In this document: positions 28,663-28,886 of the stretch, piece after piece | How positions within the stretch are numbered: position 1 is the first letter of the stretch | How the letters are laid out: each line of letters begins with the position of its first letter | Assembly (NCBI GenBank): GCA_003022565.1 | Contig: PXTN01000110.1 | Span: 1 to 39,403 of the forward strand | Direction of reading: 5' to 3' | Length of the DNA stretch: 39,403 nt | From: Bacteroidetes bacterium QS_3_64_15 | GTDB lineage: Bacteria; Bacteroidota; Rhodothermia; Rhodothermales; Salinibacteraceae | Position numbers and translations under genes: made by a program | The notes under the pieces: generated by a model | Databases searched by the model: none | The model's input: only the letters and a program-made list of their open reading frames with translations | Told to the model about the DNA's origin: nothing

Positions 28663-28672
28663 GCGTTAGCCG
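28663..28672. repeat. Left target-site duplication, element copy 2
   Basis: GCGTTAGCCG, identical to 28877-28886. It preserves a second copy of the end of eno, including a TAA stop on the minus strand. Confidence 0.8.
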
Positions 28673-28876
28673 TAGGGCAATCGCATGAACGCAACACGTC
28701 GCTCTGAGCTTGACTCAGAGCCTATCCAACCAAATGGGGTAACCATATCCGACGGATTTATGGGCTCCAAATCAAGTTTGGAGCGACGAACGAACGTGGT
28801 GTTGTAGAGCTAATCGGCCAGAACACAGATAACTGAGGCTTCCCCAAACCAACAGGTAATTGATGCGATTGCCCTG
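28673..28876. mobile_element. 204-bp MITE-like non-autonomous element, copy 2
   Basis: Its inverted ends, AGGGCAATCGCAT (28674-28686) and the complement (28863-28875), share the GGCAATCGCAT core with copy 1 at 9373-9573. It is flanked by the exact 10-bp direct repeat GCGTTAGCCG. It has no coding capacity. It carries the same 90-nt two-hairpin core as copy 1 but nearer the left end (25 nt rather than 75 nt), so the two elements are relatives rather than simple duplicates. It occupies almost all of the eno-ftsB spacer. Confidence 0.82.
28698..28787. repeat. 90-nt paired-hairpin core, copy 2
   Basis: Units at 28698-28722 and 28763-28787. The left unit is identical to that of copy 1; the right differs only in its loop (TCAAG here, GCAAG in copy 1). 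The 40 nt between the units differ from copy 1 while their length is the same. Confidence 0.8.
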
Positions 28877-28886
28877 GCGTTAGCCG
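28877..28886. repeat. Right target-site duplication, element copy 2 (overlaps eno stop)
   Basis: GCGTTAGCCG; bases 28880-28882 are the TAA stop codon of eno read on the minus strand. Confidence 0.8.

Follow-up and report, generated by a model that had tools for sequence, protein, structure and literature searches.

The window analysed here, the whole 39,403-nt stretch of the contig, contains an enolase gene (eno) followed on the same strand by a gene for an FtsB-like protein, and the preliminary description had placed a mobile element exactly at the eno stop codon, between the two. That proposal now stands on terminal inverted repeats, a 10-bp target duplication, an ISAs1 relative in the same genome and empty sites in relatives. 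The features discussed below are as follows.

9363-9372 and 9574-9583, no strand: exact 10-bp duplication CGCTTCTCGC around the second copy of the MITE family
9373-9573, no strand: second copy of the MITE family, with ACGGC-type ends and a REP dimer inside
28353-28652, minus strand: ftsB-like / DivIC septum formation initiator, 99 aa (PF04977, E 1.8e-15)
28663-28672, no strand: left target-site duplication, GCGTTAGCCG
28673-28876, no strand: 204-bp MITE with ISAs1-type ends
28673-28689, plus strand: left terminal inverted repeat, matching the right end at 15/17 positions
28697-28788, no strand: CGTC-tagged REP head-to-head heterodimer (CGTC + hairpin ... hairpin + GACG)
28701-28721, plus strand: REP hairpin 1, 8-bp stem and 5-nt loop CTTGA, all cells paired in 16 sequences
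28764-28784, minus strand: REP hairpin 2, inverted, 8-bp stem, loop TCAAG on the plus strand, 98.4% of cells paired
28860-28876, minus strand: right terminal inverted repeat
28877-28886, no strand: right target-site duplication, GCGTTAGCCG, containing the eno stop codon
28880-30169, minus strand: eno, enolase, 429 aa (TIGR01060, E 7.4e-198), with its stop codon within the right target duplication

The ends of the 204-bp element are TAGGGCAATCGCATGAA and, read from the other side, CAGGGCAATCGCATCAA, with 15 of 17 positions matching. Around them, the direct repeat is exactly 10 bp long with both copies identical; at the window's base composition, a match of this length would arise by chance at a fixed offset with p of about 2e-6. 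The coordinates first given for the element and its repeats are correct to the base, as are the location of the eno stop codon in the right repeat and the distance of 10 nt between the left GCGTTAGCCG copy and the ftsB-like start at 28652. Since the duplicated 10 bp include the eno stop codon, which is retained inside the right duplication, both proteins are intact, as had been claimed. The ftsB-like protein also matches NF002058 with E 1.4e-6, a value under that model's curated cut-off. The spacer between the two genes measures 227 nt, and subtracting the element and one repeat leaves 13 nt. The element is thus a real mobile-element insertion and, taken alone, an ordinary MITE insertion.

An enolase query matched 59 of 60 relatives, and the gap to the next gene was read in 30 returned loci, comprising the window's own, 12 of the same genus and 17 more distant. 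Measured to the first ATG of the frame that encodes the FtsB-like protein's FDSHS motif, the same-genus gaps were 15, 15, 15, 15, 12, 12, 12, 12, 11, 10, 8 and 6 nt. The empty site anticipated from the window is therefore present in all 12 same-genus relatives (6-15 nt, versus 227 nt here); the rebuilt junction of 13 nt fits this range, and a shared 227-nt spacer was found in none of the 12. In the 17 more distant loci, a possible start lies at most 68 nt from eno. The eno-ftsB pair is tight throughout the genus, and the window is consequently the exception.

The ends of the element, referred to below as kind T1, recur in its own genome. A scan for AGGGCAATCGCATS on both strands, with at most one mismatch, returned 41 sites versus 1 for a reversed control pattern, and several of these sites pair up with target duplications. 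One pair, on contig C44, encloses an insertion sequence of about 1.25 kb around a 385-aa ISAs1 transposase (NF033564, E 1.1e-109, far above the cut-off) and is flanked by its own exact 10-bp duplication. In this genome, ends of the type AGGGC(A/T)ATCGCAT bound the NF033564 transposase; those of the ISAs1 copy, AGGGCTATCGCATC, are slightly different from the MITE's, and the shared core differs by one base. Target duplications of the ISAs1 family range from 8 to 10 bp. Because the T1 ends resemble the ISAs1 ends of the same genome and both come with a 10-bp duplication, the 204-bp element is best classified, by its sequence, as a non-autonomous ISAs1-type MITE. As in ISAs1-family MITEs, its ends and duplication match those of the insertion sequence; it differs in carrying a REP dimer in its middle, whereas the ISAs1 copy is without a dimer.

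The window contains a second member of this family, and here too relatives are empty. T1-type ends were found upstream of the acyl-CoA dehydrogenase gene in the window's own locus, and none were found within 1500 nt upstream of its orthologue in the 11 of 11 relatives compared; the twelfth relative, G009, was left out as having distant paralogues only. Among the matches listed, the 10-bp duplication, expected from the preliminary description to recur at other copies, is exact in 9 of the 12 double-ended T1 dimer loci, while two retain 9 of 10 positions and one 8 of 10. Three T1 copies in this genome are 96-97% identical, which suggests a recent spread of their subfamily. Similarity between the eno-ftsB MITE and the 11 other aligned T1 elements is 60-70%, and no near-identical donor copy was found among them; the eno-ftsB MITE thus belongs to a different subfamily. 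In two further T1-ended elements of this genome, at C53:14524-14659 (137 bp) and C58:2307-2463 (158 bp), no REP hairpin was seen.

The two hairpins already recognized in the preliminary description form a CGTC-tagged REP heterodimer, which we aligned with others in a set of 16 chosen copies from six genomes. The aligned dimers consist of GTC, an 8-bp stem, a CTTGA-type loop and the returning stem, followed by an inverted partner, so that each has its tags outside and two unlike stems, a head-to-head heterodimer. In the window, the CGTC tag (28697-28700) is unpaired and its counterpart GACG occupies 28785-28788. The GTC of the tag is invariant in 16/16 dimers, the tag's first C lying outside the alignment, and in 16/16 the stems begin with GC rather than with A-T at the first or second position. 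The hairpins are conserved. Changes on both sides of a pair occurred in 3 of the 8 pairs of hairpin 1 and 2 of the 8 of hairpin 2, and the local hairpins reached a covariation score of 0.139, versus 0.082 in shuffles, with 0 of 500 as high; relatedness among the aligned dimers may inflate scores of this type. Two of the five measures give no clear preference for the structure: for the number of pairs changed on both sides, 18 of 500 shuffles were equally high, and for further pair types, 496 of 500. The central stem of the dimer had 84% of its cells paired. The predicted RNA minimum includes a long hairpin joining the two REP hairpins; as a conserved fold, this long pairing was rejected, its covariation score being matched by 177 of 500 shuffles.

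According to the accessible parts of the survey by Di Nocera et al. 2013 (PMC3733652), CGTC REPs have an unpaired CGTC at one end of a palindrome with an 8-9-bp stem and a 4-5-nt loop, and they form head-to-head dimers that are mostly heterodimers in some families. Judged on this description, the two hairpins of the window fit the CGTC REP class. They share the CGTC tag, the 8-bp stem, the 5-nt loop and the head-to-head heterodimer with tags outside, as well as a short CYA tail and partly complementary spacer ends. Two differences separate them from the repeats as presented there: the first stem pairs are almost invariably A-T in the survey and G-C here, and the sections available report no transposase link, whereas here the dimer lies between transposon-like ends with target duplications. 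In the same sections, Halothiobacillus CGTC-1 and Anabaena GTAG-15 are likewise REP dimers regularly found within an outer palindrome, and they are unlike the present case, in which there are several outer ends, duplications and complete insertion-sequence matches. The exact hairpin pattern occurred in 15 genome contigs (10 Salinivenus, 4 Bacteroidetes bins and 1 Candidatus Psychracetigena), and it had no exact match among viral contigs; compared with Rfam, the window had no match at gathering score.

Additional structure was seen within some dimers. Short palindromes such as GGACATCTAGATGTCC occupy the REP stems or arms at L176, L177 and L189 (genome G007), L152 (G010) and L017 (G008), where they would make branched hairpins. 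The T2 elements (another kind of end, described below) L137 (G003:C70) and L169 (G004:C34) have closely matching flanks in two species, and one of the two carries about 60 nt extra within its REP hairpin 2 loop (CACGAGCGAAGCG ... CTGATGCAATA). Loop inserts of this sort, also present in L136, L159, L162 and L198, add another layer of nesting, this one inside the hairpin. L137 and L169 probably represent one shared insertion, as probably do L165 and L200.

A covariance model of the dimer found matches in 11 of the 13 genus genomes, with a load of up to 47 matches (both strands counted) of about 100 nt each in a 4.8-Mb genome. We assembled 81 dimer loci from the matches listed, which included the two window copies, plus the locus on contig C55 of this genome; the weakest of the 81 may be false dimers. 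A locus was considered to have a shell when both inverted ends were of one of six kinds (T1-T6) with at most two mismatches in all. Among the matches listed, this applied to 42 of the 81 loci, a count that is partly circular because the end patterns were taken from the dimer loci themselves; by kind, there were 12 T1, 7 T2, 12 T3 (excluding four rows better assigned to T4), 6 T4, 3 T5 and 2 T6 shells. In the controls, by contrast, paired ends of any of the six kinds were absent from all 2170 centres (720 in the 12 genus enolase loci, 1017 in the 17 wider loci and 433 in two other stretches of the window); in a control set of 2586 there was 1 T1 match, and L037, the locus of the window element itself, belonged to this set and has centres that hit. 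Duplications were 10 bp for T1 and, as judged by eye, YTAR-like and 4 bp for T4 and 8-10 bp for T6. Those of T3 followed CTNAG, with an identical middle base in the two copies in 9 of 12, and similar ones were seen by eye in T2 and T5.

The remaining 39 of the 81 loci, again among the matches listed, were without a two-ended shell. Some of these may be free dimers, others may have decayed or been truncated at contig ends, and some may be spurious weak matches to the model. Two computations compared the similarity of dimers by shell and by genome. With 35 dimers, same-shell pairs from different genomes were less alike, 1992 of 2000 shuffles being at least as high; with 19 dimers, long inserts excluded and some one-ended, same-shell pairs were slightly more alike (276 of 5000) and there was no same-genome effect. 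As the two disagreed, we make no claim on dimer clustering. A dimer-like unit at L160 (G011:C2:40920-40999) has ends ACCMAAGTTGCG and a 7-bp duplication, TAACGTA, and spans 121 bp overall.

An independent test used 30 loci fetched solely for an encoded DDE_Tnp_1 domain and scanned for paired T1-T6 ends. Paired ends surrounded a transposase at one locus for T1, two for T3 and two for T6. The T1 ends bound the ISAs1 transposase, the T3 ends bound IS982 (1100 and 1096 bp; E 9e-46 and 7e-48, above the cut-off) and the T6 ends bound IS4 (1208 bp, E 2e-46, above the cut-off); at the second T6-ended locus, L268, the tested frame had no family match. Ends shared with complete insertion sequences are accordingly those of T1, T3 and T6, the only shell kinds with an independent match. 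At four places in G007 with T4-type ends (L245-L248), no transposase-like ORF of at least 150 aa was seen by eye. The dimer model picks up both window copies, yet it had no match at E up to 1 in any of the 30 transposase loci, from which we infer that the dimer was not inherited from those insertion sequences. In this genus, such dimers lie within short elements whose ends are of six or more kinds, and complete ISAs1, IS982 and IS4 elements match three of these.

Outside the genus, the dimer model matched 26 of 148 genomes, 11 of which belong to a different family of the class, f18. The 14 dimers in 13 loci of this family (L229-L241) are all of the A-T type; their best inverted flank is the REP itself in 9 and weak (score 7-8.5) in 5, and none of the 14 has a duplication of more than 3 bp. 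These dimers look free. In a sister genus, an A-T-type CGTC dimer at L242 (G019:C91) has inverted ends (CT..GTACACGACAA) and a 9-bp duplication, and its ends are a further kind of shell.

We consider it very probable that an ISAs1-type MITE entered the eno-ftsB gap and that CGTC REP dimers in this genus are MITE passengers mobilised by several DDE transposases. As the comparison with relatives shows, a non-autonomous MITE of this type jumped into the 13-nt gap, duplicating 10 bp; an ISAs1 transposase would have mobilised it in trans. The dimer would travel as a passenger inside the MITE shell, and what several DDE transposases recognise would be the outer ends rather than the REP. The insertion would add hairpins to the eno-ftsB transcript, and these may shift mRNA stability or read-through; a changed ftsB:eno ratio, as suggested in the preliminary description, would be a possible effect.

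Other explanations account for parts of these observations. That relatives lost an ancestral 227-nt spacer, or that the spacer is an assembly artefact, is hardly credible: nothing was found in favor of it beyond an assembly of 131 contigs that is 84% complete, an ancestral long spacer was ruled out by the short spacers of 12/12 relatives, an exact duplication flanks the element, and T1-type ends are missing at the second window site in 11/11 relatives compared. It is rather unlikely, but deserves more weight, that the element is an ordinary ISAs1 MITE whose hairpin pair is incidental filler, with similar dimers elsewhere being a chance-captured abundant repeat. The C53 and C58 elements speak for this, as they are T1-ended and show no dimer, so that a dimer is unnecessary for the shell; the preserved stem pairing speaks against it, as does the occurrence of dimers within six kinds of ends in several genomes despite their tiny share of the genome. 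Beyond the passenger interpretation, we regard as tentative, and somewhat less than an even prospect, the view that CGTC REP dimers are a portable MITE core, repeatedly captured between the ends of this lineage's DDE insertion sequences (ISAs1, IS982, IS4 and others). Spreading in this way would explain why the dimers have no transposase of their own, and their hairpins would perhaps promote MITE formation or survival.

Two inverted hairpins also make up a REPIN, and 133-138 aa is the size of plain IS200 transposases. REPINs are reportedly moved by RAYTs (PMC3116915). An improbable alternative is, on this model, that the REP dimer is itself what moves, by means of a RAYT/HUH transposase, and that it entered pre-existing MITEs secondarily. 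The two inverted tagged hairpins of the eno-ftsB dimer do look like a REPIN, and the RAYT domain Y1_Tnp had matches in 6 of the 13 genus genomes and in 13 of the 14 other genomes searched that have dimer-like matches. However, the tag is GTAG in REPINs and CGTC here, outer inverted ends and duplications are present here, and Y1_Tnp had no match in 7 of the 13 genus genomes, including this genome (G000, 84% complete) and the dimer-rich G007 (99% complete), both with many dimers; a RAYT as the mover in this 84% complete genome was ruled out on the absence of a match. Moreover, 5 of the 9 genus matches are frames of 133-138 aa matched over their full length, and in its accessible text PMC3733652 describes no case of CGTC repeats on either side of a transposase gene. 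Less probable still is that the element owes its retention to hairpins that tune eno versus ftsB expression as an insulator or terminator. The transcribed strand has a strong predicted fold (-80.9 kcal/mol, z -5.4), and one terminator-like site lies within the element on that strand, but the region 28300-29000 has 2 such sites, compared with 0.6 (sd 0.9) in shuffles, and no promoter-like (sigma-70-like) site, and the insertion is confined to this lineage among the 13 genus genomes.

It is important to place the passenger interpretation beside what has been reported for this repeat class. In the sections available, the survey that named CGTC REPs (PMC3733652) reports them from five phyla, states that they have no dedicated transposase and closes by asking what moves them, one option raised being a broad spectrum of transposases. 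In the open-licence literature we found no account that places CGTC REP dimers in MITEs belonging to several families, and literature on Salinibacter with MITE or palindromic repeats yielded nothing on such repeats, as did searches with the repeat letters. In the accessible text of PMC12306157 and PMC6006769, CGTC appears once each, within the cited title of PMC3733652.

The eno-ftsB MITE gains interest because, through its cargo, several transposase families become linked with an orphan class of REP. At this locus, a MITE brought in a CGTC REP as cargo, at a position where relatives have an empty site, and in the genus such cargo is found inside ends matching three transposase families. If the portable-core view is true, it would answer, for this lineage, the question on which the available text of PMC3733652 closes. 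The mobility of CGTC REPs thereby becomes testable with simple donor assays, and the locus itself is a naturally occurring instance in which an operon gap widened from about 13 nt to 227 nt while the two genes remained intact.
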